Below are positions 5,130 through 39,093 of a DNA stretch of 62,015 nt, piece by piece (the first letter of the stretch is position 1; each line of letters opens with the position of its first letter). The notes under the pieces are model-generated. The model was not told the origin of the DNA, searched no databases, and worked only from the letters and a program-made list of their open reading frames with translations. The stretch is from an uncultured Clostridia bacterium. GTDB lineage: Bacteria > Bacillota > Clostridia > Christensenellales > UBA3700. A program made the position numbers and the translations under genes. Location of the stretch: positions 1-62,015 of the forward strand of contig CALWHM010000007.1 in assembly GCA_944380395.1 (NCBI GenBank), in the 5' to 3' direction.

Positions 5130-7289
5130 ATGAAAAAAAAGATAACGGTAATCACGATTTTACTTTTTGTAGTTGTTATGTGCTGTGTACTTACCGCGTG
5201 CGCTGATCCGCACGAACATGAGTTACAGCATTTTGAGGCAAAAGAGCCTACATGCACAGATGAGGGCAACATCGAATATTGGTACTGCGCGGGTTGCGGG
5301 AAATATTTTTCCGATGAGACGGCAGACACCGAGATAACAGCTGATAATACCATCATTGCGGCAAGCGGACATACGTATCAAAACCATGTGTGCACCAAAT
5401 GTGGCGCAACAGAGGACGGATATGTAGAGGAATCGCTTGAATACAGATTGCTGGCCGATGATACTTACGAAGTTTCAGATATAGGAACTGTTACGGATAC
5501 AAACTTGGCAATTCCAAAAATGTATAACGGCAAAGCTGTTACAAGTATAGGAGAGAGGGCGTTTGCTTTTTGTTCTGATTTAACGAATATCACTATACCA
5601 GAAAGTGTAACAAATATAGGTAATGAGGCTTTTTTAAATTGCAGTAGCTTAGTAGGCGTTACTATACTTAAAGGTGTGACAAGCGTAGGAGATAGAGTAA
5701 TTTTTGGTTGTAACAGTTTAACAAATATAATTGTAGAACAAGGTAATCCAGTATATCATAGTGCAGGGAATTGCTTGATAGAAACGGATAGTAAGACACT
5801 TATAGCAGGTTGTAATAATAGCATAATTCCTAATGATAAAAGCATAACGATTATAAATGATTATGCGTTTTCGGCTTGCATTGGTTTAACAAATATAGTT
5901 ATACCCGACAGTGTAGTAAGTATAGGAGATTATGCGTTTTGGTCTTGTGAAGGTTTAACAAATATAACAATAGGAAGTAATGTAAAAAGCATAGGAGATT
6001 ATGCGTTTGGGGATTGTTATGGCTTAACAAGCATAGCTATACCCGATAGTGTGACAAGCATAGGAAGTTATTCGTTTGGTGGTTGTTATGGCTTAACAAG
6101 CATAACTATACCTAGCAGTGTAACAAGTATGGCAAGCACTACATTCAGCAATTGTAGTGGAATTATACAGATAGAAAACGGCGTAAGTTATGTAGATAAA
6201 TGGTTGATAGACTGTGATAATAGCTTATCCCAAGTTCAACTGCGTAGTAATACTGTAGGAATAGCTAATAGTGCATTCTCCGGTTGCAGCGACTTGACAA
6301 GCATAACCATACCCGACAGCGTAACAAGCATAGGAAATGATGCATTCTCCGATTGCAGCAGTTTGACAAGTATAACCATACCTGATAGCGTAACAAGCAT
6401 AGGAGATAGCATATTTTCCGGTTGTAGTGGATTAGAGAGCATAACCGTAGAACAGGGTAATTTAAATTATCATAGCGCGGGCAACTGCATAATAGAAACG
6501 GCAAGCGGAACGCTTATAGCAGGTTGTAAAAATAGCGTTATCCCTGATGACGGTAGTGTAACAAGCATAGGAGATATGGCATTCTACAATTGCAGCGGTT
6601 TGACAAGCATAACCATACCCGATAGCGTAATAAGTATAGGACATTGGGCTTTCTGTTTTTCTGACGATTTAACAAGTGTAACAATCGGTGCGGGTGTAGT
6701 AAGTATAGGAGGTATGGCATTCGACAATTGCAGAAGTTTGACAAGCATAACCATACCGAATAGTGTAACAAGTATAGAAATTATGGCATTCTCCGGCTGT
6801 AGCAGCTTGACAAGCATAACCGTGGAACAGGGAAATGCAGTATACCATAGCGCGGGCAACTGCATAATAGAAACGGCAAGCGGAACGCTTATAGCAGGCT
6901 GTAACAACAGCGTAATTCCCGATGATGGCAGCGTAACAAGCATAGGAGAGGATGCATTCTATGGTAGTGTCTTGACAAGCATAACCATACCCGATAGCGT
7001 AACAAGTATAGGAAGAAGTGCATTCATGAATTGCGATGGTTTGACAAGTATAACCATACTAAGTGGGGTTACAAGTATAGAGGATCACGCATTCTCAGGT
7101 TGCAGTAGGTTAATAAGCGTGATAATACCAGACAGTGTCACAAGCATAGGTGATGAAGTATTTCATCTTGATAAAAATTTGATAAGTATAGTATATACAG
7201 GTACTAGAGCGCAGTGGGAGACTATAAGCAAGGGTAGTAGATGGTATGATGCCGGCACGATAATTTGTACGGATGGAATATTCGATTAA
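5130..7289 (+). CDS. BspA-like leucine-rich-repeat surface lipoprotein
   Basis: A 719-residue predicted lipoprotein. Residues 1-24 form a signal peptide ending in lipobox LTAC (Cys24). Residues 25-115 form a Cys-containing N-terminal module (two CxxC-like pairs: YWYCAGCGKYF and HVCTKCGA). From about residue 120 to the end there are repeats of roughly 23 residues, of the form LTSITIPDSVTSIGxxAFxxC, the BspA/TpLRR (LRR_5) class. Three repeats are interrupted by an insert containing ITVEQGN...YHSAGNCIIETASGTLIAGC. Such proteins are usually surface-anchored binding or adhesion proteins; the ligand is unknown. AGGAGG precedes the start. Its position between truA and rplM is unusual. Confidence 0.9.
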   Translation: MKKKITVITILLFVVVMCCVLTACADPHEHELQHFEAKEPTCTDEGNIEYWYCAGCGKYFSDETADTEITADNTIIAASGHTYQNHVCTKCGATEDGYVEESLEYRLLADDTYEVSDIGTVTDTNLAIPKMYNGKAVTSIGERAFAFCSDLTNITIPESVTNIGNEAFLNCSSLVGVTILKGVTSVGDRVIFGCNSLTNIIVEQGNPVYHSAGNCLIETDSKTLIAGCNNSIIPNDKSITIINDYAFSACIGLTNIVIPDSVVSIGDYAFWSCEGLTNITIGSNVKSIGDYAFGDCYGLTSIAIPDSVTSIGSYSFGGCYGLTSITIPSSVTSMASTTFSNCSGIIQIENGVSYVDKWLIDCDNSLSQVQLRSNTVGIANSAFSGCSDLTSITIPDSVTSIGNDAFSDCSSLTSITIPDSVTSIGDSIFSGCSGLESITVEQGNLNYHSAGNCIIETASGTLIAGCKNSVIPDDGSVTSIGDMAFYNCSGLTSITIPDSVISIGHWAFCFSDDLTSVTIGAGVVSIGGMAFDNCRSLTSITIPNSVTSIEIMAFSGCSSLTSITVEQGNAVYHSAGNCIIETASGTLIAGCNNSVIPDDGSVTSIGEDAFYGSVLTSITIPDSVTSIGRSAFMNCDGLTSITILSGVTSIEDHAFSGCSRLISVIIPDSVTSIGDEVFHLDKNLISIVYTGTRAQWETISKGSRWYDAGTIICTDGIFD

Positions 7290-9624: not shown

Positions 9625-10623
9625 TCAAATTGCATTGATTTCCTTTTCCAACTGCACCATTGCGTTCATGATCTCGTCAAAACTCGGTTTTTCCCCGAAC
9701 AACATATTTTGCATGTGTTCGTAATCTGAACGAAGTTTTGCGACATTATATTCGGGCGGCAATAATTTCATCGTACCGCGTTTTGCAAGGTCATACCTTG
9801 CCCACGGACAGCGGTAAAATTTGTCTTTGAATCTTACAACGCGCTCCAGCAGATTGTTATCCTGCAAGGCGTTATCTTTTACGGGCGTTTGCATCATTTT
9901 ATATAGATCGTAATAATGCCGCGAATATCGTAACGGGAAGGGACGGCCTTCGGGGCGAAACGCCTCTCTATGTAAAATCGTGACTTTTTCCCAAAAAGTG
10001 CGTTCCGGCAAGACGGTCAGAACTTCCGTTGAAGGCTGCTCAAAAAGTCGTGCATATTGTTCAGCTGCATAAGGAGTAATCGTTGCATACCGGACTGGCG
10101 TCCATGCGGCAAGCGCGCCTATTTCAAGGCGTATCTCTTGAAGGATCGATGTATCGGAAAAACTGTTCGGATATACGATTTTTACCGTCTGCGGATCATT
10201 GCCGTCGATATAGCAATGAACATTCTCGCCAAGTTCGGCAGTCAGATCGGAAACGATCGCCGAAAGAAACGTATCTCGCAAAAATACTTCAGCGCGGGCA
10301 TTTGCTTCTTTGTTGAACGCGTCCTGTTTGGTGTTGCTGCGTTGTTTCCATGGTTCGCTCATGCCGTATCCGAGAACGCGCCAATCGAGGATCAAATCGA
10401 TATCTTCCGAAAACCGTTCTATAAGGCCGTATGCCTTTGATAAACTCGTACCGCCTTTGAATGCGATTTTGTCTTTCCAAGCGCAGCGATGAAAGAGGTA
10501 GTCGAGCATATAGCATACCCAAAAATCCTTTTCGACAATGGCATCCGTCATGCCTGTTTTAGCGGCTGTATTATGGAAGAGCGCTTTTCTGTCGCGCTCA
10601 TCGATCTTGGCGATATTTCTCAT
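9625..10623 (-). CDS. AbiEii-type nucleotidyltransferase toxin
   Basis: A 332-residue nucleotidyltransferase of the AbiEii/MNT family. The core FKGGTSLSKAYGLIERFSED then IDLIL gives the GGTSLSK loop and the DxD-type metal site (residues ~57-80). AbiEii toxins act by transferring nucleotides, and block phage propagation in type IV toxin-antitoxin systems. Its start overlaps the stop of the upstream antitoxin-like gene by 4 bases (ATGA), the normal antitoxin-first order. The specific target here cannot be told from sequence. Confidence 0.88.
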   Translation of the reverse strand: MRNIAKIDERDRKALFHNTAAKTGMTDAIVEKDFWVCYMLDYLFHRCAWKDKIAFKGGTSLSKAYGLIERFSEDIDLILDWRVLGYGMSEPWKQRSNTKQDAFNKEANARAEVFLRDTFLSAIVSDLTAELGENVHCYIDGNDPQTVKIVYPNSFSDTSILQEIRLEIGALAAWTPVRYATITPYAAEQYARLFEQPSTEVLTVLPERTFWEKVTILHREAFRPEGRPFPLRYSRHYYDLYKMMQTPVKDNALQDNNLLERVVRFKDKFYRCPWARYDLAKRGTMKLLPPEYNVAKLRSDYEHMQNMLFGEKPSFDEIMNAMVQLEKEINAI

Positions 10624-11234
10624 TTTTCACCTTTGCAAATTTGCTTGATGTATTCGTAGATCCATGAAGTAGCGATTTTTGCTTCGCTCATCATTGTCGT
10701 TTTTTCTTCGGCAGACAACAATTTCCGCAGCTTTTTGATCACGGTTTCATCGATCTTATCTTTTCCCAACGCTTTTAATGCCTGAACGGTCAGCGCGGTT
10801 TTGTAAGAGAATTTCGATATATCTTTATTCGTCGTCCTTTTGAAACGGATGACGGTATTATCATAAGAATATTCTTTATAGGGCCCGTCGCTCACATAAA
10901 GCCAAACGGCAGGAACTTGCGTTGATAAAGCAAGCAGGTTCAAAGCCGTATCGCCGCATGGAACGATTGTCCACCCGAAATTACGGGCAATCGCATGGGC
11001 TACATTGTCGGGTATGGGCGCAATGTACTCTTTCAGAAAATCACTGTATTCCGGTTTATAATAAACACCTCTGATCACTCGTTTGAGAAGCCCATCGGCT
11101 TCAAGCCGCGACAACCCGACGCTTGCCGTCTTTTTATCGGTGATATCCGTAAAATCGGCGGAGACAAAAACGGCGCCGTTTTCGGAAGCGGAGATTCGAC
11201 TTTTAATCTCACTAAGATAATTCGGTCTGATCAT
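10620..11234 (-). CDS. AbiEi-like antitoxin / DUF6088 transcriptional regulator
   Basis: A 204-residue protein beginning with a winged-helix-like domain (FTDITDKKTASVGLSRLEAD, then GLLKRVIRGVYYKPE, residues ~28-62), as in AbiEi and DUF6088 antitoxins. The remainder resembles the AbiEi C-terminal domain (HAIARNFGWTIVPCGDTALN). Such proteins bind their own promoter and counteract AbiEii. A good promoter lies 20 bases upstream; GAGGTG is the ribosome site. Confidence 0.85.
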   Translation of the reverse strand: MIRPNYLSEIKSRISASENGAVFVSADFTDITDKKTASVGLSRLEADGLLKRVIRGVYYKPEYSDFLKEYIAPIPDNVAHAIARNFGWTIVPCGDTALNLLALSTQVPAVWLYVSDGPYKEYSYDNTVIRFKRTTNKDISKFSYKTALTVQALKALGKDKIDETVIKKLRKLLSAEEKTTMMSEAKIATSWIYEYIKQICKGEK

Positions 11235-16327: not shown

Positions 16328-18317
16328 GCTGATGACGGGCGTATTGAGAAAACAGATATATTCCACCGTGAAAGTTGCCGATTCTTTGGTGGACGAAGAG
16401 ATGCTTGCGCAAGCGCAGGTATCCCCCGACACTTTGCTTTTGGAGTGGCTTGCCGAACACCCCGACAAGATCCCCGAGGACGCGGAGGAGATGACGGGTG
16501 AGGAGATGAAAGAGCTTTCTTCCATCACCATAGGTCAGATGGCAAACGCGCATTCCGCGCAGACGCTGGGCGAGTATATGGCAAAGCTGGGTATGGCGGA
16601 GATATTCGATTCGCTGCCCGCGGAATATTCAAACAGCGTGTATAACACTTCTCTCACGCAGGGAGAACCGGGCATAGACGTGCACGCCATAGTGATGACT
16701 TTGGTCAAAACGCTTATATTGGTGTGCGTATCCGGCGTGCTTTCTTATGCGCAGGGCTTTATACTGGCAACGGTGGCGCAGAGCATTTCTTACCGCTTCC
16801 GCAAAGATATTTATGCGAAAATCGATAAATTGCCGCTCAAATACTTTGACGGAACCACTCACGGAGAGGTGATGAGCTATCTTACCAACGACGTGGATAT
16901 GATCTCCACATCGCTCAACCAATCGCTTTCGCAGATGCTCACCGCCGCGACCACGCTGGTGGGCGTGATGGTGATGATGTTCCGCATAAATTGGATACTC
17001 ACGCTTGTGGCGCTTTTGATAATCCCCGTGTCCGTATTGATAATGCTCATAGTGGTGAAAAAGTCGCAGAAGTATTATTTAAGACAGCAGGAATACCTTG
17101 GGCACGTAAACGGACAGATAGAGGAAGTCTTCGGCGGGCAGAACGTTATAAAGCTGTTTTCGGGAGAAGAGCGCGCCAAGGCGCAATTTGCCGAATACAA
17201 CGATAAATTGCAAGAGTCGGCTTGGAAGTCGCAGTTTTATTCGGGTATTTTAATGCCCACAAATAAGATGATGGGCAATATAAGCTTTGTGCTCACCTGC
17301 GTGCTGGGCGGATATTTCGTGATAAACGGCAGTATGCTTGTGGGACAGATACAGGCGTTTGCAAGCTATGTCAGGCAGTTCAATCAGCCCATATCGCAAG
17401 TGTCCGGCATAGCCAACACTTTGCAGTCCACGGTGGCGGCTTCTGAAAGAGTGTTCAACTTTTTGGAGGAAAAAGAAGAGGAAGAGACGGGAACCTGCGT
17501 GTTGGGCGAAGTGGACGGCGACGTGACTTTCGAGCATGTAAGATTCGGCTACGACCCCGAAAAGATAATCATAAAGGACTTTGATTGCAAGGTGAAGGCG
17601 GGGCAGAGCATAGCCATAGTGGGACCCACGGGCGCGGGCAAGACCACGATAGTCAAACTTCTGATGCGTTTTTACGAACTCAACGGCGGCAGCATAAGCG
17701 TGGACGGCAAGAACATCGCGGACGTAACGCGCGCTTCTTTGCGCGACGAGGTGGGAATGGTGTTGCAGGATACGTGGCTGTTCTCCGGCACAATTATGGA
17801 AAACATTCGTTACGGCAGGCTGGACGCCACGGACGAAGAAGTCATAGCGGCGGCAAAGTGCGCTTACGCGGACCACTTTATAAACACTCTGCCCGGCGGA
17901 TACGGCTTTGTGATAAACGAAGAGGGCGCGAACATTTCGCAGGGGCAAAAACAGCTTTTGACCATAGCGCGCGCCATATTGGCGGACCCGCGCATCCTCA
18001 TTCTGGACGAAGCCACCTCTTCCGTGGATACGCGCACGGAACAGCTCATTCAAAACGCAATGGACGAACTTATGCGCGGCAGAACAAGCTTTGTGATAGC
18101 GCACCGCCTTTCCACCATCAAAAACGCAGACCTCATACTTGTGCTTATGGACGGGGATGTGGTGGAGCAGGGCACGCACGAAGAACTGCTGGCAAAGGGC
18201 GGCGCATATGCGGAATTGTATAACTCTCAATTCGCCTCTCCCGCGGCGGAAGAGGCGCCGAACAAATTATCGTGTGCGGCGGCACCAAAATCGACGTGGA
18301 AAAAGAGTGCGAAATAG
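16098..18317 (+). CDS. Heterodimeric ABC exporter, catalytic subunit
   Basis: A 739-residue half-transporter pairing with the upstream subunit. It has a basic N-terminal tail, TM1 at ~50-70, then an extracytoplasmic insert of roughly 110 residues (acidic, residues ~75-195) before TM2, and TMs to ~430. The NBD has Walker A GPTGAGKTT (~508), signature ISQGQKQLLTIARA (altered from SGGQ), Walker B ILILDEATSSVD with the catalytic Glu, and IAHRLSTI H-loop. This complements the degenerate partner. The last ~25 residues after YNSQFA look like read-through into the gene remnant at 18272. Confidence 0.92.
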   Translation: MSAQVSRPARRPMHRGLGGPHGGMPGEKPKEFKKTLGKTLRYMRKNLPAIIIAFILAIGGVVATILVPDIMGQATDELMTGVLRKQIYSTVKVADSLVDEEMLAQAQVSPDTLLLEWLAEHPDKIPEDAEEMTGEEMKELSSITIGQMANAHSAQTLGEYMAKLGMAEIFDSLPAEYSNSVYNTSLTQGEPGIDVHAIVMTLVKTLILVCVSGVLSYAQGFILATVAQSISYRFRKDIYAKIDKLPLKYFDGTTHGEVMSYLTNDVDMISTSLNQSLSQMLTAATTLVGVMVMMFRINWILTLVALLIIPVSVLIMLIVVKKSQKYYLRQQEYLGHVNGQIEEVFGGQNVIKLFSGEERAKAQFAEYNDKLQESAWKSQFYSGILMPTNKMMGNISFVLTCVLGGYFVINGSMLVGQIQAFASYVRQFNQPISQVSGIANTLQSTVAASERVFNFLEEKEEEETGTCVLGEVDGDVTFEHVRFGYDPEKIIIKDFDCKVKAGQSIAIVGPTGAGKTTIVKLLMRFYELNGGSISVDGKNIADVTRASLRDEVGMVLQDTWLFSGTIMENIRYGRLDATDEEVIAAAKCAYADHFINTLPGGYGFVINEEGANISQGQKQLLTIARAILADPRILILDEATSSVDTRTEQLIQNAMDELMRGRTSFVIAHRLSTIKNADLILVLMDGDVVEQGTHEELLAKGGAYAELYNSQFASPAAEEAPNKLSCAAAPKSTWKKSAK

Positions 18318-18874
18318 GCGGCACGCTCTTGCGGTTTTTGTCACCCGATGAGGCTTATAAGCTGTACCTCACCTCGCGCGGAGCCGCGTTTTCCGACGGG
18401 GCGGTATACGAAGAAGGCGGCAAGATAATCGCCCAATTAAAGGAGGGGGAGAGCGCTGCTTTGTGCGGCAAAACTTTATTCACACCCCGGCCTTGCCCCG
18501 CGCCCGTATTGAAGAGGGTGGGGAAAATGCGCTTGAAATACAACTCCTATATGTTCTCTTTCGGCAAGCGGGCGTATTACAAGCTCACTCTGCCAAAGGT
18601 TTCCGACTGCGACGACATGGAAATAACCCTCGCCTTCGGCGGGCTCAACCTGCAGATGTTTTGCCGCGGCAAGATAGTGGACGACTGCTTCAACACGAAC
18701 GGCTTTTATACCTTCCGCCTCAGCGGCGTGGGCAGGCATGACGAATACGTCATCCGCGTGTGCGCGCCCACCTCTTTCGGCGGCGGCAACGTATATAACG
18801 AAATCTCCCTCACCCCGGGCAACACCTTTCTTGCCGTGCACTCATTTAAGCGTATAAAGGAGGTGTGTATTTAA
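18272..18874 (+). pseudogene. C-terminal remnant of an unrecognised beta-rich protein
   Basis: The frame from a GTG at 18272 gives 200 residues and overlaps the ABC gene by 46 bases. No good ribosome site is visible and the frame has no natural N terminus. The region GKRAYYKLTLPKV...FGGLNLQMFCRGKIVDD...YTFRLSG looks like a jelly-roll ligand domain such as the C-terminal domain of GH35-type beta-galactosidases; this match is by eye and weak. The likely story is a deletion that fused the end of another gene to the ABC operon. Confidence 0.45.
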
Positions 18875-18936
18875 TTTATTTAATCGGTAAATAACCGATA
18901 AATATATAAAAGCGCCCTTATCCTGCGTATTGCATA

Positions 18937-18965
18937 TTGACTTATAGTTAAGAAGAGGTTATAAT
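18937..18965 (+). promoter_or_regulatory. Promoter of TIR-STAND gene
   Basis: TTGACT (18937-18942), 17 bases, TATAAT (18960-18965). A small inverted repeat, ATCGGT-N5-ACCGAT, lies upstream at 18883-18899. Confidence 0.75.
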
Positions 18966-19000
18966 ATAAATAGTAATGTTTTTTAACAAGGGAGGAAATT

Positions 19001-22000
19001 ATGGGGACAATTGAATATAAGTACGACGTATTTTTAAGCTGGACGGGCAAAGACAGGGCTATCAAAAACAGGGTGCGCGCGATTTTGGAGGAGAACAACC
19101 TTGCGTGCTACGACAGTGACCGCGACTGCAAGGGGGATTTTGTCAGCGATTTTTGCGACGCGCTGCGTCATAGCAAGGTTTACTTGATGATTTTGACGGA
19201 CAACGTTTTTAACGATCCTAATTTGAGCGGAAAAGGCTCTTTTTCCGAAGTAAAGACAGAAGTATCGCTTGCCAAGCAGATGGAGGCGCTTGGGTATTTG
19301 AACTTTATAATTTTGAATTTTTCCGAAAAAATTACAACAAGGAATATATTTTTTAACAGTGATGTGCTGCAATTTTATTATGATAGAACGCGAGGTTATA
19401 GCTTTATCAACGCTCAACTGCCCGATGAAACGCAAGAAGAAGTTATTCTGGAGGAACAGACGGAACAGGCGATAGTGTCAAAGGCGGTGCAATTTGCAGA
19501 GGCGCGCAATGCGGGGAAACCTCTCCCGCCAATAAAGCCGGAATATGGTGTGATCAAGGAAGATTGCACGCTCTTTTACAATGTTTGTGGCAGGGAAGAG
19601 GAGATAAAAAAGATAAAGGACGCTTATAATAACGGTGCGCAAATCGTGGTGCTGTGCGGCATGGGTGGAATAGGTAAAACCACAATAGCCAAAGCGGCGA
19701 TAGCGAGCGGAGATCTCAAATTGCAATTTTTGCAAACAGCTGTGATAGATGACGACCCGAACAATCCCAATCGCAATATTATCGGCGATATAATTGCTGC
19801 CATTAAGTTTGACGACGAGTCCTTAAATAAGCTGGATTCAAATGCAAAAATGGCAAAAAAGATCGAGCTCCTAAAAAAGCTTCCGGAATACGCAGTGATT
19901 TTGCTGGATAATTTCAATGATATAACCATGGATGCACTTTACGCGCTCTTAAAGGAGTTTAAGTGCAGATTTTTGATAACCACTAGGAATTTAACGGATA
20001 AAAAAGGCTTGCCAATTTCCAACAAGATAGTCACTATCAATATTACCTTACCAGGCAAAGAAGCCCCTGATATCATTGGCCTAAACATCCCCACGCTTTC
20101 CTTTGAGGAGGCCGTTAAATTTATGAGGCAGGAGAGTGAAAGGCAGTTGAGCGAGGAAGACGTCAAGCTTTGGTACGACCTTGCAAACGGGCATACATTA
20201 ACGCTTATGCTCATTGCCAGGACATTGGCTTCAAATAATTTGACTACTGAGCAGCTTTTTGGAAAAATCGGCGGCGGCGCGGAGTTGATGACTTCTTATA
20301 CCGATAATCAAAATACACTGCACACCAATTCCATAGAAAATATAATGTGCGAACTGTTTAGGGTGAGCGAGATAGAAAAGAGCGATATAAGGCGCCGCAT
20401 TTTGTGCAATTTGGCGCTGGTGAGCGACGGCATACCCGAAGAGAAATTAAAGGAATTGGACGAAAACGGCAATGAGATAAATCGCCTTGTCAAGGCAGGT
20501 TGGGCGGAATATTCGGGCGATATAGGCAGCAGAAAGGTGTATTTGCATGGTATGTTGGCAAATTTCGTGGTCAAGCCCAAATTAAAGCCCACAAGCGAGA
20601 GCGCAAAGTTGGCGATTGACTACCTGTGCGAACTTGCGGATAACTACAAGGGCTTGACATACGGCAACGCCAAATCGATGGTTACGCAGATCTACGGCGC
20701 GCTCCTGTTGCTTGCAAAAAACGAAGGCAAGCTGAATGAGCAGTTGTGGGAAAGATATAGGATTTTGAGCGTAGATTGCCTCGTATATGCAGATATAACC
20801 AAGCAGTGCGAAAAGCTGGAAAAGTATGTCAACGATAGTGGCATAAAATCTTTTGCTTTGGTGGCATATGCAAACGAACACCCCGGCGACTATGCGGAAA
20901 TAGATACCCTCATAACGGAAATTTTGCAAAAGGACAACTATAATTACAAGGAAGTGCTCTATATACTTTCCGTATACGGAGAATATCTGTCGAAAGACGA
21001 TAAAGCAAGGGGGATGATAGCGGAAAAACTTTTGGAGATAGCAGACGTGATCATAAAAAGGCAAGACGGCATGAGTTTGCTTGTGCTATATATGCAGTGC
21101 CTGTTGTATGGAAACGATAAACCGATAAGAAAAAAGATTAAGGCGTATTTAAAAAAGAAACTAAAGGAAGGGAGTATAACGGGATACGAATTATATTTGC
21201 AATTTATGTTGTCGTTTAACGGTAATGATCTAAAAAATTGGAGCAGGATATTTAACGATTCCATTCAAGCAATTTCAAGCGATAATAAAGGCGGTCAAAT
21301 AAAGATTTTATTTAAATACCTAAAAAAGGTCGTTAATGGATATCGTACAATTAATTTTTTAACTAATCATAATAATATGATTGAAGAAGACTGTGCGTCC
21401 GAAGCCATTGGAGCTATTTTTATAAATCTAATAAACTTTTATTCTAGTAGCGTCTTCAAGATTTCAAATATCGATGCTGAAAATGATCTGGCGGATATAA
21501 ACGAAATATTGGTTGCGGCATATGGAATGTACAAGGATTTAAATGATGCAGGACTGACCGGTATATCTGCAAATAAGGCGATGGAACAGCTGATGGGAAT
21601 GCTTTCAATGATAATGAATAAAAGCGGCGTTGTTTTGCAGCTCCCTTCCATAACATATAAAGGGCGAGGAGAAGAGTATACGATAGAAGAGATAAATAAT
21701 TTGAAATTTCAAACAATGATAAATCTTGAACTACAAAGCGGAGCGGAAAGCGAATTCAGGCAAAAGGCGAATGCTCTTATCGAGATAGCAAAAAATGCTT
21801 GCCCGGAGGAAGCGGGCGCAGACGGAAGACCTGTAAAGAATATTTATAATATTAAAATGGCGGAGGCGTATTATAATGCCGCAAGGTTAATGCAGAAAAA
21901 TGGATATCTCAGAGGTGCATCGGAATGTTATTTTAATGCGATTGTCATTTTATGTAAAATAGCACCCAAGAGCAATTTATTTTATAACAGCTGCATAGGC

Positions 22001-22975
22001 TTTTTCTTATGTAGTAATCAGGTATATCAAGATAAAGCTCGTAATCTTTATAAATGGACATATAATAAGCGCATAGACAAAGTATATGCGCTTGCAAAAG
22101 AGCATATGCAAGAGTATTCGAGTAAATTGCTTTCTATAATATGCGAGTATGTCAAATGCAAAAGTGTATCATGGAGTAGAGATATTTCGACCGAGGAGTG
22201 TTTTGCTCATATGCAAGAGGCACTGGACATATTAAAAAAGGCGGTAAAAGATATAAAGCTATATAACTTTGCCGACGCGGATAAAACTTTGTGTAATGCG
22301 ATAAGCGAGTGCTTATATCGGATGTTACAAGAAGTGCTTATAACGGATTTTGATAACCTCAGCGAAGCCGGAAAGATATTGGAGTGCGACAAAGTAAAGG
22401 AGATAAAAAGGGAACTTTTGGAATTGATATACATCCTGGCAAAGCAGGCGAAGAGGAAGAACAGAGCGTATTTGCACTCATTATACAGCGAAAATGATGC
22501 CAGAATCGAGATGAGTGAGATATTGTCAGGAGATAAAAAAGCGAGCGAAGGTACATACGAGCTGCTGAGAAACACGGTGAAAGAGAAGTGTAAAATATCT
22601 TCATATAACTCCGCGCTGCACTTCCTTGGTCACCTGTTTGACTTTGCGGGAAACAGCGATGACGTCAAGCAATTTTGTTCCTACTTCTTTAAAAAGGGCA
22701 AATATTTTGAAAAGGCATCTCAAACCGTGGAAGAGGGGATGGTCATACTCATAGACCTACACAAGGGCAAGTTAAATGATCTTACGGAAAAAGATTTATT
22801 TTTGGAATATTCGAGTTTTGTTTGCGCAAGAGCGTCTGCCAAAGCAAAAAAAATCGGCAATCAAATAAAAAAAGAAGTGCTTGCCGAAGCAAACATTAGG
22901 GGGTACAACGCGAATAAATTCATGCTAGCCGTACTGCAAAAGTGCACTGCCTACATAAAAAAGCTATATGGTTAA
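19001..22975 (+). CDS. TIR-STAND (NLR-like) protein with helical-repeat sensor, probable antiphage defence
   Basis: A 1,324-residue three-part protein. (1) Residues ~6-150 form a TIR domain: YDVFLSWTGKDRAIKNRVRA at the start, DSDRDCKGDF, SKVYLMILTDNVF, and an acidic helix with GSFSEVKTEVSLA that could supply the catalytic Glu of NAD-cleaving TIRs. (2) Residues ~185-500 form an NB-ARC/STAND NTPase: GREEEIKKIKD, P-loop GMGGIGKTT (~220), Walker B AVILLDNFND (~298) and RFLITTRN (~323). (3) From ~530 to the end, about 790 residues of alpha-helical, TPR-like superhelix. This is the layout of plant NLRs and bacterial antiphage STANDs, where the repeats sense and the TIR depletes NAD. It is a single gene, with AGGGAGG before the ATG. 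Confidence 0.88.
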   Translation: MGTIEYKYDVFLSWTGKDRAIKNRVRAILEENNLACYDSDRDCKGDFVSDFCDALRHSKVYLMILTDNVFNDPNLSGKGSFSEVKTEVSLAKQMEALGYLNFIILNFSEKITTRNIFFNSDVLQFYYDRTRGYSFINAQLPDETQEEVILEEQTEQAIVSKAVQFAEARNAGKPLPPIKPEYGVIKEDCTLFYNVCGREEEIKKIKDAYNNGAQIVVLCGMGGIGKTTIAKAAIASGDLKLQFLQTAVIDDDPNNPNRNIIGDIIAAIKFDDESLNKLDSNAKMAKKIELLKKLPEYAVILLDNFNDITMDALYALLKEFKCRFLITTRNLTDKKGLPISNKIVTINITLPGKEAPDIIGLNIPTLSFEEAVKFMRQESERQLSEEDVKLWYDLANGHTLTLMLIARTLASNNLTTEQLFGKIGGGAELMTSYTDNQNTLHTNSIENIMCELFRVSEIEKSDIRRRILCNLALVSDGIPEEKLKELDENGNEINRLVKAGWAEYSGDIGSRKVYLHGMLANFVVKPKLKPTSESAKLAIDYLCELADNYKGLTYGNAKSMVTQIYGALLLLAKNEGKLNEQLWERYRILSVDCLVYADITKQCEKLEKYVNDSGIKSFALVAYANEHPGDYAEIDTLITEILQKDNYNYKEVLYILSVYGEYLSKDDKARGMIAEKLLEIADVIIKRQDGMSLLVLYMQCLLYGNDKPIRKKIKAYLKKKLKEGSITGYELYLQFMLSFNGNDLKNWSRIFNDSIQAISSDNKGGQIKILFKYLKKVVNGYRTINFLTNHNNMIEEDCASEAIGAIFINLINFYSSSVFKISNIDAENDLADINEILVAAYGMYKDLNDAGLTGISANKAMEQLMGMLSMIMNKSGVVLQLPSITYKGRGEEYTIEEINNLKFQTMINLELQSGAESEFRQKANALIEIAKNACPEEAGADGRPVKNIYNIKMAEAYYNAARLMQKNGYLRGASECYFNAIVILCKIAPKSNLFYNSCIGFFLCSNQVYQDKARNLYKWTYNKRIDKVYALAKEHMQEYSSKLLSIICEYVKCKSVSWSRDISTEECFAHMQEALDILKKAVKDIKLYNFADADKTLCNAISECLYRMLQEVLITDFDNLSEAGKILECDKVKEIKRELLELIYILAKQAKRKNRAYLHSLYSENDARIEMSEILSGDKKASEGTYELLRNTVKEKCKISSYNSALHFLGHLFDFAGNSDDVKQFCSYFFKKGKYFEKASQTVEEGMVILIDLHKGKLNDLTEKDLFLEYSSFVCARASAKAKKIGNQIKKEVLAEANIRGYNANKFMLAVLQKCTAYIKKLYG

Positions 22976-23010
22976 AAAGAAAAGAAGAGCACACAAGAGG
23001 AAAATTGATA

Positions 23011-23042
23011 AAAAAATACGGGCATCGCTGTCCGTATTTTTT
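23011..23042. terminator. Bidirectional terminator between TIR-STAND gene and tRNA-Arg
   Basis: AAAAAATACGG / CCGTATTTTTT with a 10-base loop. It serves the plus-strand gene and the minus-strand tRNA. Confidence 0.8.
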
Positions 23043-23045
23043 AGT

Positions 23046-23122
23046 TGGCGTACCCGAATGGATTTGAACCATCGACACCAAGCGTCGGAGGCTTGTGCTC
23101 TATCCAACTGAGCTACGGGTAC
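23046..23122 (-). tRNA. tRNA-Arg(CCG)
   Basis: The minus strand folds as a complete tRNA. The acceptor stem is GTACCCG/CGGGTAC with discriminator G and an encoded CCA. The D-arm is AGCTCAGTTGGATAGAGCA, the anticodon stem CAAGC/GCTTG closes loop CTCCGAC (anticodon CCG), and the T-loop is TTCAAAT. It reads CGG arginine codons. Its 3' end faces the TIR-STAND gene. Confidence 0.95.
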
Positions 23123-23212
23123 ATTACAATTAAGGGCTTTAACGGCAAGCACGCCGCCAAGCCCTTATATTATAGACTTTTTCTTAAAGAATGTAAAGGC
23201 ATTGACCGTGCG

Positions 23213-23719
23213 TCAGTCGCCGTCGTCCTCGCCGTCTTCGTCTTCCTCTTCTTCCTCGTCGTCGGGAATGTCTTCCACGTCGTCGATGTCGTAGTCGAAG
23301 TCGTCTTCAAGGTCGCTGTCCTCGTTCTGCGCGGCTTCTTCCTCGTCCGCTTCCGCGTCCGCGTAGTCCTCTTCGTTGCCGAACTCTTCGTTGTCGTCAA
23401 AGGCTTCGTCAAAGTCGTCGTAAAGCTCGTCTTCACGCATGGCTTCGTAAGAGTCTTCGTACTCGGAGTTGTCGGATTCGGGCTGAGGCTCGCTTTCGTA
23501 CTCGTCGTTCTTGCCCAAGCGCTCCGCTTTGGCGCGGCACTCCGCGCACATCTTGTCGCCCGGTTCCAGAGGGTTTATGCCGCACACGGGGCATATGTCC
23601 TCATCGTAATCGTCGTCAAGAATCTTGCCTTCAAGCTCCTGTTTGCAGATCTCGCAATACTCTTCATCTTCCGGGATCCAATTCAGTTCACAGCGGGGGC
23701 ATTTTTTATATTTTCCCAT
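23213..23719 (-). CDS. Zinc-ribbon protein with long acidic tail
   Basis: A 168-residue protein. Residues 1-70 hold three cysteine pairs (CPRC...CEIC, CPVCG...CAEC) consistent with two small zinc ribbons. Residues ~75-168 are almost wholly Asp/Glu with few other residues, ending in a run of Asp, Glu and Gly. I do not recognise a named family. The tail may mimic nucleic acid or bind basic partners; this is inference. GGGAG precedes the ATG. Confidence 0.8.
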   Translation of the reverse strand: MGKYKKCPRCELNWIPEDEEYCEICKQELEGKILDDDYDEDICPVCGINPLEPGDKMCAECRAKAERLGKNDEYESEPQPESDNSEYEDSYEAMREDELYDDFDEAFDDNEEFGNEEDYADAEADEEEAAQNEDSDLEDDFDYDIDDVEDIPDDEEEEEDEDGEDDGD

Positions 23720-23822
23720 AGTTATCTCCCTTTGCTTGATAATAGATATCGCATAGTATTATAAAAGCTAATTTCGCATTTGTAAATACCTTTTGCGAAA
23801 AAATATGTATAATTTTTTCAAA

Positions 23823-25109
23823 TCAACATATTTCGCGGTTTTTGAAGCACAATTTTTTCAATGCAAGCAGGTAGATGTCGTATATCTTCTTCAAATCCGC
23901 CACGCTTGCCCGTTCGTTGCGCTGGTGTATGGTGGGTATGCCGCCGGGGAAACAGGGACCGAACGCCGCAAGCCCGGGCGCCACGCGCGCATAGGTCGCG
24001 CCGCCTATCGTAAGGGGGCTGTCGCTGCTTCCCGTCACCTCGTTATAAGCGCTCAGCAAGCCCTGTATAAGCGGAGAATTTACGTCCACGGAGTGGGGCA
24101 GGTGCTCGCCCGTGACCTGAACGCGGCAGGGCAGCGCTTTTTCTATTCTGCCCACTATCTCCTCCGCCGTGAATGTGACGGGATAGCGAATGTCCAGCTC
24201 CGCAAAAAGATGGTCTTTGGTAGAAGAAAGCACGCCCAAATTGCAGGTGAGAGCGCCGCTTTCCTTGTCCGACAGGGCGCAGTCTATACCGCTGCCGTCT
24301 GTTGTGCACAGCTTGGCGGCAAGGACTTTGGCTGCGGGAGAGATCTCTCCAAGCGCCGCCAGCACCTTGTGCGCGGCGTTTTCGCCCAGCCAAGGCGTGG
24401 AGCCGTGCGCGGGCTTTCCGCTCGCGCTCAGCACGTAGCCGCCCTTGAAGGGGGTGCAGTCCACGCCCTCTGAATGTACGGGGGCGTCGCATACGGCAAG
24501 GCAGGAGTCCATCACCACGTTTACCCGCTCTCCGCCGCTTACGACGCGCACATGTTCGGGCAGCGGCAGGGTGAGGCGCACGTGCAGCACGCCCTTTTCA
24601 CAGGCGATAACGGGAAAGTCCGCGTCGGGGGAAAAGCCCTCGCACGGCCACTTGTCCACTTGGGAGTAGCGCTCCGCGCACTTCCAGCCGCTCTCTTCGT
24701 TGCCGCCCGCGAAAAAGCGTATTTTGCGGCAGGGAATATACCCTTCGCTAATAAGCTGCCGGGCGGCGTACAGGCACAGCAGCAGCGGACCTTTGTCGTC
24801 CAGAACGCCTCTGCCGTACACTACGCCGCCTGCTATCTCTCCCAGCGGGGAGAAGTCCCAGCCTTCGCCCAAGGGCACGGTGTCCAAGTGCCCCAAAATG
24901 GCGAAAGGTTCGCCTTCGCCTATGTCGGCGGTGACGTAATAGCCGTCCTCGTTGTGCACGGTAAAGCCCATGCTCTTTGCAAGGGAGGCGAATTTTTCCA
25001 ATATCCTGCCCACGCCTTCGCCGAAGGGTGAGGAAGGACAGGGCGCGCTCTGCACGCTCTCTATTGCCAAAAACTCCATTATGCCGTTAAGCGCTTTTTC
25101 AAAACCCAT
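23823..25109 (-). CDS. M20 family (Sapep/PepV-type) metallo-dipeptidase
   Basis: A 428-residue M20 peptidase. The metal ligands and core are visible: ILGHLDTVPLGEGW (His and Asp), GRGVLDDKGPLLLCLYA (bridging Asp), FAGGNEESGWKC (catalytic Glu pair) and, near the C terminus, GGATYARVAPGLAAFGPCFPG with the last His in PTIHQRNE. The VYGRGVLDDKGP pattern fits the Sapep/PepV dipeptidase branch, which hydrolyses dipeptides in the cytosol. GGAGAAAACT precedes the start. It is divergent from gltX. Confidence 0.9.
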   Translation of the reverse strand: MGFEKALNGIMEFLAIESVQSAPCPSSPFGEGVGRILEKFASLAKSMGFTVHNEDGYYVTADIGEGEPFAILGHLDTVPLGEGWDFSPLGEIAGGVVYGRGVLDDKGPLLLCLYAARQLISEGYIPCRKIRFFAGGNEESGWKCAERYSQVDKWPCEGFSPDADFPVIACEKGVLHVRLTLPLPEHVRVVSGGERVNVVMDSCLAVCDAPVHSEGVDCTPFKGGYVLSASGKPAHGSTPWLGENAAHKVLAALGEISPAAKVLAAKLCTTDGSGIDCALSDKESGALTCNLGVLSSTKDHLFAELDIRYPVTFTAEEIVGRIEKALPCRVQVTGEHLPHSVDVNSPLIQGLLSAYNEVTGSSDSPLTIGGATYARVAPGLAAFGPCFPGGIPTIHQRNERASVADLKKIYDIYLLALKKLCFKNREIC

Positions 25110-35245: not shown

Positions 35246-35449
35246 GTGATTCAGGAAAAAGTAGGAAAAAGAATTAAAGAGTTACGATTGCAACTTGGTA
35301 TTAGTCAAGAGGAACTTGCTGCTCGGGCAAATCTCGATAGAACATACATCACAAGTGTTGAGCGAGGTAGAAGGAATATTTCAATAGGAACGTTGGAGAA
35401 GATAGTTCTGCAATTAGATTGCACAATGCATGATTTTTTTAATTTTTAA
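35246..35449 (+). CDS. Restriction-modification controller (C) protein
   Basis: A 67-residue HTH_3 protein: GKRIKELRLQLGISQEELAA, then RANLDRTYITSVERGRRNIS, the signature of C proteins, ending LDCTMHDFFNF. C proteins bind C-boxes to delay nuclease synthesis until DNA is methylated. The GTG at 35246 was chosen: AAGGTG lies 7 bases upstream, while the earlier in-frame ATG at 35204 is inside the promoter. The restriction gene follows 13 bases later, the usual C-R order. Confidence 0.88.
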   Translation: MIQEKVGKRIKELRLQLGISQEELAARANLDRTYITSVERGRRNISIGTLEKIVLQLDCTMHDFFNF

Positions 35450-35462
35450 TCAGGAGAAAAAT

Positions 35463-36062
35463 ATGACGAAAACAGAGTTGTTTATCAAACTAGCGCAGCC
35501 AAATTCAGAAGGGGTGAGTCGTTGGGTAAATGTGGTGGAATTCGTGGGTGATTATGCGGCCTTGAAATTTGGAAACGGTGCATCATGGGCAAGAAAAGAA
35601 TCAACTCTTGCAAAAAATTACATAATTGAATTTGATAGAAGCATTACGCCGGGAAACGGAATAGATAGAATACGCTTAAATGGGTTTAATGACGGAAAAT
35701 ATTCTCAACATATCAGGGCTGATATTCGAAAGGCAATTAAAGATCGTCGATGTGTTGTATTGGGAACTTCTAATCCCGAAGTTGATCACAAGAATGGAAT
35801 GAAAAACGAAGATCGCGTTATGCAAAATGAAGATCAACGACTAGAGGACTTTCAACCATTAAGTAAAGCGGCAAATGATGCAAAAAGACAGTACTGTAAG
35901 GAGTGTATAAGGACTGGTATACGCTATGATGCGAAAAAATTAGGTTATCCAATGTCTTATTACAAAGGTGGCGCAAAGCATCATTTTGAGTCGGATGCTT
36001 GCGTGGGCTGTTATTGGTATGATCCGTTAGAATTTAAAAAACACCTACAAGAAAAGAAATAG
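35463..36062 (+). CDS. HNH-type type II restriction endonuclease
   Basis: A 199-residue protein. The HNH core is PEVDHKNGMKNEDR (His plus Asn), and EDFQPLSKAANDAKRQYC, then KECIRTGIRYDAKKLGYP, with CKEC and CVGC zinc pairs. This pattern recurs in short HNH restriction enzymes beside methyltransferases. Its context is decisive: C protein 13 bases upstream, two methyltransferases tail-to-tail downstream. AGGAG precedes the ATG. The recognition site cannot be read from sequence. Confidence 0.82.
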   Translation: MTKTELFIKLAQPNSEGVSRWVNVVEFVGDYAALKFGNGASWARKESTLAKNYIIEFDRSITPGNGIDRIRLNGFNDGKYSQHIRADIRKAIKDRRCVVLGTSNPEVDHKNGMKNEDRVMQNEDQRLEDFQPLSKAANDAKRQYCKECIRTGIRYDAKKLGYPMSYYKGGAKHHFESDACVGCYWYDPLEFKKHLQEKK

Positions 36063-36124
36063 AAAATGTGTAAGGAATGTGTATTTTAAAGTAATGTGTG
36101 GCGAAAAATGGTTAACCAATAATT

Positions 36125-36910
36125 TTATTTTTTAAACAGAAAAATATATTCATGCTTAAAAATATATAGCCCGTTTTTTAAGGCTCTTTGACGCCAAAGC
36201 GCTTGTTGGTTTGATTTACCTTTTGTATGTTCGAAATTTTTGACGATAGTTGCTTTTAATGTAAGTCCTTCTTGTTGCATAACTTGCATGCAATAAAAAC
36301 CAAGTGGAATTAACTGACCATTAGTATATTTATCACCAATAACAACAGCGCAATATCTACCGTTTTCAAGTACCGCAGAAGTATTCTTTACTACTTTGCG
36401 AAAATTTTCTAAAAAATCATTTAATGTTTTGGAATTAGATAAATCATTTTCATCGTCACTGAATTTGATTATATCCCAGTATGGAGGGTGATAAATAATA
36501 AATTGAACATTATTTATTTTATATGTATTAGTAATTCTCCGAATATCAAATGTTCGGCTATCATCAACAAAGGTGTCGGCAATTAGGTTGCTTTTTTGTT
36601 CAGAATGTACTCGTTGAATTGCTTCATTTGCAACAAATGGTTGTAGTTCAATTCCAATGGAGTTCCGACCCATTCTCTGTGCTTCAATAAGTGTTGTTCC
36701 GCTTCCCGAAAAAGGATCTAATACAAACTCTCCTGCTCTTGTATAACGAGCGAGTAGTTGATGAGGTATTTGCGGGACAAAATTACCATGATAATTTGCA
36801 TTATGCGCACCGGAATTATCTCTTTGCGGGATAAGCCATAAGCTGTCTGTCCATATATCATTCAGCTCTTTCCATTTAGTTATATCAAGATCATTTATTT
36901 TGCGCATCAT
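36125..36910 (-). CDS. DNA methyltransferase, beta-type (amino-methylating)
   Basis: A 261-residue amino-methyltransferase with the catalytic motif first-group order: IIYHPPYWDIIKFSDD (motif IV, HPPYW form) lies after the SAM motif FVLDPFSGSGTTLIEAQRMG. It methylates N6-adenine or N4-cytosine. ATG at 36910 overlaps the stop of the upstream methyltransferase (ATGA), with AAAGGG before it; a TTG 7 codons earlier is less likely. It is convergent with the nuclease gene, 62 bases between stops. Confidence 0.85.
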   Translation of the reverse strand: MMRKINDLDITKWKELNDIWTDSLWLIPQRDNSGAHNANYHGNFVPQIPHQLLARYTRAGEFVLDPFSGSGTTLIEAQRMGRNSIGIELQPFVANEAIQRVHSEQKSNLIADTFVDDSRTFDIRRITNTYKINNVQFIIYHPPYWDIIKFSDDENDLSNSKTLNDFLENFRKVVKNTSAVLENGRYCAVVIGDKYTNGQLIPLGFYCMQVMQQEGLTLKATIVKNFEHTKGKSNQQALWRQRALKNGLYIFKHEYIFLFKK

Positions 36911-37947
36911 ATGGTGCCCTTTACCAAGCAATGTAAGTACTCTATAGTAGAAGTCGATTTACAGTCTCTGGCATTATCAGCTTTAAATCGACGGTATTGC
37001 TGCATATACACGTTGTATTTGCCATATTTTTTCATTATTTTTTCTATAGTATCAAAAGACATTAGTCCTTCATTATTATAACTTAGAAAAATATATTTAA
37101 AATTAGCATTCTTTATGAGATCATCAAATGCTTTGACTACTTTACCCTTAATACAAAAAACGCTTTTTTGATTTGCATAATCACGTAAGCCTGTTTTTCC
37201 TTTAATAATAGGGTTATCATATCTTGCTATGGTTTCCAATAAGTGATAATTTGAACAATATTGTCGTGTATTGTATGGCGGATCAAGATATAATATATCG
37301 CCAGAAATGTGCTTAATTAATTCACACACATCTTCATTATATACTTTGCAAGAAACGGACCCCTGCATTATAGGAAGTGCAACTAATTCCATTTCTTTTA
37401 AGGCTGATTTTTTCAGGTTTTTCAAATAGGCGCCATATACGGAGGCAGTGTTCGCATATTTATCTATGCTATTTAATAGCGATCCGAGTAAAAAAAAGTA
37501 TTCGTGTTTGGTTATACTTCCTGCACTAAGCCAATTTTCGATTGCAATTCTAATCGCGTCACATTTTTTAGCATTGGAATCCGAAAAGTACATTCTACGA
37601 AAATCCTGTCCTTCGGTGCCGCCATATGAATAATTGCTATATATAAACCCTTCAACGCCATTCAATTGATTAAGCTGACGAATTAGTTGTAAACAACGGT
37701 CTTTATCGAGATTCCCGTTGTTTTCAATCATATGCTTTGTTATAACATAGCTGTAATATTGTATATCATTTGCAATAATAGAATACCCCTGTTTTTTGAA
37801 GGAACCACTGACTACGCCTGTACCGGCAAATAGATCAGCAAAAATCATTTGCGATGGTACCCGTGTTTCGTTATATAATTTAAGTGTCTTATCGATTGAG
37901 GTCTCTAAAAAATCGATTAGAGAATATTTAGATCCGATATAATTCAT
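36907..37947 (-). CDS. DNA adenine N6-methyltransferase, D12 class (alpha type)
   Basis: A 346-residue methyltransferase: MNYIGSKYSLIDFLE (motif X), FADLFAGTGVVSGSFKKQG (motif I) and DILYLDPPYNTRQYCSNYH (motif IV, DPPY). This is the D12/Dam-like class that methylates adenine N6. Two different methyltransferases with one nuclease usually mean an asymmetric recognition site, one enzyme per strand. AGAGAAGGTAG precedes the start. An inverted repeat TGACAAA-N3-TTTGTCA (37997-38013) lies upstream and may be regulatory. Confidence 0.88.
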   Translation of the reverse strand: MNYIGSKYSLIDFLETSIDKTLKLYNETRVPSQMIFADLFAGTGVVSGSFKKQGYSIIANDIQYYSYVITKHMIENNGNLDKDRCLQLIRQLNQLNGVEGFIYSNYSYGGTEGQDFRRMYFSDSNAKKCDAIRIAIENWLSAGSITKHEYFFLLGSLLNSIDKYANTASVYGAYLKNLKKSALKEMELVALPIMQGSVSCKVYNEDVCELIKHISGDILYLDPPYNTRQYCSNYHLLETIARYDNPIIKGKTGLRDYANQKSVFCIKGKVVKAFDDLIKNANFKYIFLSYNNEGLMSFDTIEKIMKKYGKYNVYMQQYRRFKADNARDCKSTSTIEYLHCLVKGTI

Positions 37948-38244
37948 TTTATCTACCTTCTCTTGCTATGTTTTTAAAAGTAACAGCGGAGTGTTTTGAC
38001 AAATTTTTTGTCATGCCACAGGTTTTAGTTGCTACTATTATAAACATAGATATAGTACATTAAATAGTATAACACTTTTTATATGTTGTATCAAGTTAAA
38101 TGAGTAGGTCTACTTTATATAATGAAAACTTCCTGAATATTTATTGGGAATAGATGTATAGATAAAATATTAAACGAGATTGAAAAAATATAATAGAAGT
38201 GATACAATATAACTGAAATAAAAGTGATTGAGGCAGGTTAATAT

Positions 38245-39093
38245 ATGGATAAAGATATTAAAAGAGTAGAATCAATAATAAATAGAACGTATAGAATCTC
38301 TCAATTTAATAACTTCGTAAAGTCTTTTGAAGAAGATATTTGTGCAGATAAAAAGAATAATGATTTTGATAAGTGGTTGCGGGAATATATCCAAATTATG
38401 AAAAACAAATGTTCACAAATTGAAGCGGAAACAATATATAGATGCCGTATTTTAGAAGAAGAAGATTTAATTTCGGAACGGAATGGGATTAATATTGAAA
38501 ATTTATCCGGTTATGATTGCCTGAATTCAAAGGAACCTCCTAGCGCAGCAGCTGCTAACGGAAGGTGTAATAGTAAGGGGAATTCATATTTTTATGCAGC
38601 TGAAGATGAATATACAGCACTGGTTGAGATTAGACCAGTGGTAATGCAATTTGTGTCGTTAGCGGAATTTGAAATCTACTCCCTATTGCTGGCAGATTTA
38701 ACACTCTGTTATTTGCAAGATGATAGGTCGAAATATTATGCAAAAAAGCTTTTTGATATTTTTTCGTTTATCAAAGTAAAAGAAGAGAGCTACAGAATAT
38801 CTCAATATGTTGCATCGCTATTTAGAGAAAACGGGTTTGACGGTATAAGATATCCCAGTTCACTAACTGCAGGAAACAATATCGTTATTTTTAATTATTT
38901 ACACAAAAATATGAGGTTTGTAAAAAGTAGGTTGGTACGATTGTTTCAGGTAGAATTTGAGTTTGCTGATATATCAAAAAATAAATTAATAGAAAAAAAC
39001 TTGAAAACAGGCTATACTGAGCAGTCCTGTTCTGAAACTATACAATTGTTAAATAAAATGAAAAAAATAAGTGTTGAAAACAAGAGGAGTTAA
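38245..39093 (+). CDS. RES-domain protein (NAD-phosphorylase toxin fold)
   Basis: A 282-residue protein. From residue ~65 it matches the RES domain: IYRCRILEEEDL (Arg), NSYFYAAEDEYTALVEIRP (Glu region) and GFDGIRYPSSLTAGNNIVIFN (Ser). RES toxins degrade NAD. It differs from the small MbcT/ParT toxins in having ~60 extra N-terminal residues and a ~45-residue C-terminal extension, and no Xre-type antitoxin gene lies upstream. The gene is very AT-rich, like the adjoining restriction-modification genes. Confidence 0.78.
   Translation: MDKDIKRVESIINRTYRISQFNNFVKSFEEDICADKKNNDFDKWLREYIQIMKNKCSQIEAETIYRCRILEEEDLISERNGINIENLSGYDCLNSKEPPSAAAANGRCNSKGNSYFYAAEDEYTALVEIRPVVMQFVSLAEFEIYSLLLADLTLCYLQDDRSKYYAKKLFDIFSFIKVKEESYRISQYVASLFRENGFDGIRYPSSLTAGNNIVIFNYLHKNMRFVKSRLVRLFQVEFEFADISKNKLIEKNLKTGYTEQSCSETIQLLNKMKKISVENKRS

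Follow-up and report, generated by a model that had tools for sequence, protein, structure and literature searches.

We analysed a stretch of 62,015 nucleotides (the window), which is contig 7 of the 1.78-Mb, 88% complete genome (G000) of an uncultured Clostridia bacterium. A gene at 19001..22975 on the + strand encodes, from an ATG start and in a single open frame, a TIR-NB-ARC-helical STAND protein of 1324 residues. The explanation we lean towards is that it is a sensor that phage would trigger and that would cleave NAD, belonging to a family whose signal goes to proteins with a ryanodine-receptor (RyR) domain, the window gene acting in trans or being orphaned; this explanation and the rivals weighed below overlap. 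We infer the defence role, the trigger, the oligomerisation, the product and the channel opening of the family. The long helical half would sense a trigger inside the cell, for which a phage component is the likeliest candidate, and the NB-ARC ATPase would oligomerise the protein, clustering TIR domains that then cleave NAD+. The product, ADP-ribose (ADPR) or a cyclic-ADPR-type molecule (cADPR), would be read in the family by an RyR-domain protein. In several members this reader is a membrane protein that resembles a tandem-RCK channel, and its opening would stop growth. The diffusible product and its reading by RyR proteins are suggested by the genes neighbouring the relatives.

RyR-domain partners of the relatives

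Among 396 other genomes of the order, four (G310, G136, G175 and G351) match the window protein from the TIR domain into the sensor, with 28–32% identity over a span of about residues 1–735 to 1–907. A search of 151 genomes of the family of G310 added a fifth relative, G891, which is truncated where its contig ends, and in G206 a match to the NB-ARC part; 41 genomes of the family of G136 yielded nothing further except a TIR protein in G775 that is more distantly related. The five relatives are uncultured Clostridia metagenome-assembled genomes (MAGs) and represent two genera, three in g24 and two in g125. An alignment scan of genome contigs returned four MAG loci only, those of G310, G175, G351 and G136, and a class-wide search matched 13 of 390 other genomes, mainly in the NB-ARC part. 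Pattern scans of genome and viral contigs with the window protein gave no close relative, and tblastn against plasmids and phages gave nothing at 1e-5.

In all five relatives an RyR-domain gene directly precedes the TIR-STAND gene in the same orientation, with 3 to 37 bases between the two. The partner is a membrane protein in three of them; in G310 and G891 it is a small RyR open reading frame (ORF) with no other Pfam family above cut-off. When the three membrane partners are combined into a profile, it finds RyR domains of known structure (6uhi, E 2.5e-10; 4n05, E 2.9e-5). These partners comprise N-terminal membrane helices, two alpha/beta modules that align to gating rings, and the C-terminal RyR domain. 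The best structural rows for the model of the G175 partner, a low-confidence model, are the TrkA, CASTOR, DMI1, GsuK and BK gating rings; on this weak model the membrane partners appear to resemble tandem-RCK gating rings. No canonical selectivity-filter motif was seen by eye in them. They differ from the tandem-RCK channels and transporters (TrkA/TrkH, GsuK, CASTOR/DMI1, BK) by the extra C-terminal RyR domain.

The phage protein RyDEP binds and cleaves 2'/3'cADPR and has the ligand residues H75, W78, H100 and D117 (PMC13232231). All 12 channel-type partners aligned carry an E-H-x-R-W motif and, further on, an H and a D; their H–W (3) and H–D (17) spacings equal those of the RyDEP residues, onto which they were mapped by spacing. 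By eye, the small RyR ORFs from G310 and from G891 also have counterparts of the four residues (H, W, H, D). The relatives' partners thus share with RyDEP and the phage RyR proteins both the domain and four ligand residues at similar spacing; the phage proteins, however, act as antagonists, whereas the partners here are bacterial, stand beside TIR genes and are in several cases fused to membrane RCK-like modules. It might be argued that the RyR proteins are brakes, which bind or hydrolyse the TIR product against auto-immunity, much as the phage protein RyDEP does. The conserved residues in both kinds of partner would suit this, as would small ORFs that carry no further Pfam family. But RCK-like modules and a place in the membrane, as many of the partners have them, would be unusual in a soluble hydrolase, and the other RyDEP homologues tested are reported to show no cleavage (PMC13232231). 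A brake seems improbable to us.

The sequences of the TIR-STAND proteins diverge unevenly. Identity of the window protein to the relatives is 35–37% in the TIR domain, 31–38% over residues 171–340, 25–28% over 341–530, 19–24% over 531–735 and 8–22% beyond; between G175 and G351, the relatives most similar to each other, it falls from the TIR to the C-terminal end as 64, 65, 59, 41, 37, 29 and 23%. Such a pattern, with the enzyme part conserved and the sensor diverging, is what would be expected in an arms race. Glu87 and the glycines and lysine of the P-loop are invariant in the five family members aligned.

Two of the related loci have features of their own. In the G310 relative (L035 7737–11222) the profile match crosses an internal TAG, and the open frame has a shortened sensor. 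The TIR protein of G775 (955 residues, L087 305–5342), related to that of the window, is divergent from ORFs that by eye resemble TrkH/TrkA potassium uptake.

Recurrence of TIR genes near channel-like RyR genes

Three of the five relatives belong to one genus, and the channel of g24 also stands at feoB without a TIR-STAND gene (G266, G286 and G368, with feoB off the contig in G286). The channel was therefore searched for independently. A first channel profile matched 40 of 397 genomes of the order. Three of these had been reached through TIR-STAND (G136, G175, G351) and 11 had weak matches; with these left out, 26 genomes and 27 loci remained. TIR_2 lies within 4 kb in 8 of these 27 loci, against 0.44 expected by chance; the TIR_2 positions came from 39 genomes, of which 38 had a match, and genome sizes were rounded. 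The expectation assumes an even spread of TIR genes and takes no account of defence islands or of common descent, and two pairs of positives share a family; the P of 1.4e-7 obtained for 8 of 35 loci is therefore too small. Some channel loci are cut by contig ends (for example G265 and G271).

The arrangement at several positive loci is operon-like. G147 carries RyR, RCK-RyR and TIR genes in succession, separated by 12 and 1 bases; G350 carries TIR and RCK-RyR, and G046 carries RCK-RyR, a small RyR and TIR. In G259 and G167 a divergent TIR gene lies near the channel, and in G043 a TIR-LRR gene is one ORF away. G303, also among the eight, has a channel of a second type, as does G310. Outside the order, the channel matched a single plasmid, from Butyrivibrio fibrisolvens, where it adjoins a TIR protein gene. 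The sensor halves of the TIR genes near RyR proteins are unlike one another, being helical STAND, LRR or, weakly, beta-propeller-like.

Two results weigh against the link. TIR lies within 4 kb in none of the eight loci found with a second channel profile or the RyR search, that of the window genome included, and four of five plasmid matches of the small RyR have no annotated TIR in the stretch fetched. In the fifth, from Priestia (L176 1653–9862), the RyR gene directly follows that of a cyclase; a Pycsar effector gene is close by, and 1.4 kb away the opposite strand carries a TIR gene.

The family may be compared with known systems. In Thoeris (ThsB TIR and ThsA), as presumed for the relatives, a TIR makes an ADPR-type signal for a separate reader protein; in the relatives, by contrast, the STAND sensor is fused to the TIR and the reader would be RyR, not SLOG or Macro. 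No ThsA-type effector (SIR2-SLOG or Macro) was found beside the window gene, and no ThsB model is among the Pfam or PADLOC matches of the window protein, a missing match being weak evidence. The TIR-STAND architecture is already known, and the window protein is a further member of the TIR-NLR kind (PMC9122126; PMC10952713). The TIR-NLR of P4-like satellites, according to the first of these, likewise is a single protein with an N-terminal TIR, a central STAND ATPase and a C-terminal helical part, encoded by an accessory gene. In contrast to it, the window protein has no match in the phage collection and no Pfam TPR, and its nearest relatives have RyR partners and come from uncultured Clostridia MAGs. 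In the literature searched, PMC13232231 alone connects RyR domains with bacterial TIR signals, and PMC8295901 also contains the words ryanodine and Thoeris; the pairing of TIR and RyR did not turn up there as a described variant, but may already be in print.

If the proposed signalling is true, the novelty would lie in the reading of a TIR signal by an RyR domain, which is often part of a membrane protein of tandem-RCK-like build. It would be a prokaryotic counterpart of animal cADPR-RyR and plant TIR-to-channel signalling. The proposed link between cADPR and the ryanodine receptor in animals is old and disputed; with a small bacterial RyR channel encoded beside the TIR enzyme that serves it, such a link could be tested directly.

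Other gene sets in these searches are recorded here. Two TIR-AAA/NACHT-LRR proteins of 1376 and 1896 residues with BspA-type LRRs (L042 6050–10180; L048 5961–11651), from the same order, have the plant TNL plan with LRRs. RyR/RCK-like proteins stand beside a large AAA-M41 protease-type protein in L154 5922–16581 (by Pfam) and in L155 and L156 (by eye); L154 also has ORFs that by eye are vWA-, PP2C- and kinase-like.

The window gene and its possible partner

The earlier note, made from the letters of the window and a list of its ORFs, had seen TIR and NB-ARC in one gene, and Pfam agrees. TIR_2 matches residues 10–106 with 28.0 bits, exactly the cut-off of 28 (E 3.4e-6), and passes that cut-off in the scan of the genomes for TIR_2; NB-ARC matches residues 200–330 (E 3.1e-10). 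The TIR domain spans residues 1–170 (19001..19510, + strand) and the NB-ARC module about residues 196–528 (19586..20584, + strand), with the P-loop GMGGIGKT at 19658–19681. NB-ARC and not NACHT is matched in the window protein; the relatives match NACHT below cut-off. The A1 profile finds PH0952 (E 1.1e-11) and the plant receptor Roq1 (E 1.7e-5) in the NB-ARC part. With the whole protein as query, PDB gave nothing at E 0.01, and with the TIR alone only a chance-level match (E 1.3, not a TIR). The catalytic-type Glu that the note required of the TIR is present as Glu87 (codon 19259–19261), placed by eye from known TIR motifs; given the role of this Glu in TIR enzymes, it is the candidate catalytic residue. 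The gene is single-copy in its genome, which holds five TIR_2 matches overall.

The C-terminal half, residues 529–1324 (20585..22972, + strand), is the fast-diverging putative sensor. About 790 residues of helical repeats had been claimed for it. The structure prediction that the note called for, here an AlphaFold2 model, is all-helical throughout (about 795 residues), with an overall mean confidence of 51.9; residues 529–728 are moderately to well predicted (10-residue means 55–91) and confidence is low beyond about 728. The model thus supports a helical half as a whole, but a repeat-like array for residues 529–728 only, and no Pfam repeat family matches this half in any of the five members scanned. 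The plan of TIR, NB-ARC and a long C-terminus is that of plant receptors such as Roq1, but the C-terminus here is helical, and Pfam finds no LRR in the window protein. The note could assign the sensor to no described group, and neither can we from the libraries searched: residues 530–1324 have no Pfam or NCBIfam family above cut-off and no noteworthy PADLOC match. A kinship with Avs or other curated defence models did not emerge, since the best PADLOC match of the window protein is mad8 at E 0.035 (library of 2023), and two TIR-STAND relatives gave none or E 0.004. TIR-AP-ATPases occur in vWA systems (PMC7159879); for the FxSxx-COOH/vWA-ternary AP-ATPase group, the FxSxx_TPR equivalog scores 18 bits over 35 residues against a cut-off of 300.

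Unlike the five relatives, the window gene has no adjacent RyR-domain gene at its locus, and a PF02026 search of G000 gave no match, although the same search finds the relatives' RyR proteins. On contig 29 the second channel profile does find a protein of 921 residues (E 2.7e-11 for the best piece, 1.6e-26 for the whole). This protein (L144 7246–11148) is divergent and RCK-RyR-like; by eye it has a C-terminal EHRRW and the second His, with Val at the Asp position. Its locus also occurs in G001 (shortened), G002 and G005, all genus-mates without TIR-STAND, and the protein therefore did not arrive with the TIR-STAND gene. As a clear cognate partner it was dropped, and it is kept as a candidate. 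The window protein may signal in trans to it or act by NAD+ loss alone. We put forward, tentatively, a two-gene bacterial circuit in which a TIR-NLR-like sensor would turn NAD+ into an ADPR-type messenger and this would open an RCK ion channel with an RyR domain, the window gene being a member with its channel elsewhere in the genome. The RCK-RyR-like locus shared by genus-mates (L152, L153, L161) has a von-Willebrand-type ORF (by eye) just upstream and may be a separate signalling system.

An abortive-infection NADase had been proposed in the earlier note. The TIR-STAND architecture fits this, but solitary suicide by NAD depletion, of the Rousset TIR-NLR kind and with no second messenger or partner, is only one option, and to us a rather doubtful one. 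Its case rests on the missing partner at the window locus, on an insert that holds no other recognised gene, and on the single-gene TIR-STAND-TPR defence known by experiment (PMC9122126). Depletion of NAD alone, however, does not need the RyR gene adjacent in all five closest relatives; because these have RyR-domain partners, a signal-making TIR rather than a solitary suicide protein is pointed to. The missing partner, a TIR score only at cut-off and junctions where no mobile-element machinery was seen could also mean an orphan or decaying gene, a sensor that came in unaccompanied by an effector and now serves no function. The intact frame of 1324 codons, the conserved P-loop and Glu87 and a plausibly placed promoter speak against such decay, which we think improbable.

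Insert, site and neighbourhood

The same tRNA locus was compared in six genus-mates (G001–G006). The TIR-STAND gene is absent at this site in all six (tblastn of the gene against the six loci gave nothing), and their whole genomes gave only a weak NB-ARC-part match, in G006. The gene is thus a variable accessory gene and not, as the note had allowed, a conserved housekeeping gene. That it is a non-defence regulator, for example a signalling ATPase of cell physiology, is made very improbable by its scattered occurrence (in the order, 4 of 396 other genomes), deviating composition and fast-diverging sensor. The G+C content of the gene is 0.405 (0.373 in its last 1.77 kb), against 0.52 in the ABC genes.

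In four genus-mates (G002, G003, G004, G005) the junction is empty, an ABC-transporter gene being followed by tRNA-Arg with 85–377 bases between. Comparison with these by blastn and tblastn defines an insert of about 4.75 kb and low G+C content (18266..23010), with the left junction at 18236–18266 and the right at 23010–23012; the bordering ABC-transporter gene ends at 18317 in the window. In the other two, the place beside this tRNA is taken by a putative ATPase gene (G001) or by a putative MATE transporter (G006), both named by eye. The tRNA-Arg (CCG) lies at 23046..23122 on the - strand, its 3' end facing the TIR-STAND gene 70 bases from the stop, as the note had it. An inverted repeat at 23011..23042, likely a terminator hairpin, belongs to the stretch common to the genus-mates. 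The tRNA had been suggested as an integration site. The right junction is about 35 bases outside it, beyond the hairpin that the genus-mates also have, and neither direct repeats in 17500–24500 nor, among the ORFs listed in the vicinity of the gene, any that looks like an integrase were seen, the family search having covered part of the window ORFs. Because no att repeat or integrase was seen, tRNA-targeted integration of the insert is unproven.

A TTGACT-17-TATAAT site with 11 of 12 consensus bases (18937..18965, + strand) and a ribosome-site-like GGGAGG (18990–18995, + strand) precede the gene. The promoter assigned to the gene in the note is present and, by its position, plausibly placed, but such sites are no commoner in the region than in shuffles (12 against 11.6 expected). 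The gene was also described as alone. No adjacent defence gene was recognised at the locus, but a 200-residue ORF without assigned nature (18272..18874, + strand) shares the insert; the other neighbours are ABC transporters (by eye), the tRNA and a zinc-ribbon protein.

Elsewhere in the window, a second stretch of low G+C content (0.30–0.36) at 35430–39093 holds an ICEA protein, two DNA methyltransferase-like proteins and a RES-domain protein, possibly restriction-modification plus toxin-antitoxin. An AbiEii-type toxin (E 5.5e-39) and an adjacent 204-residue ORF at 9625–11234 may form an AbiE-like pair. A BspA-type LRR protein of 719 residues is encoded at 5130–7289.

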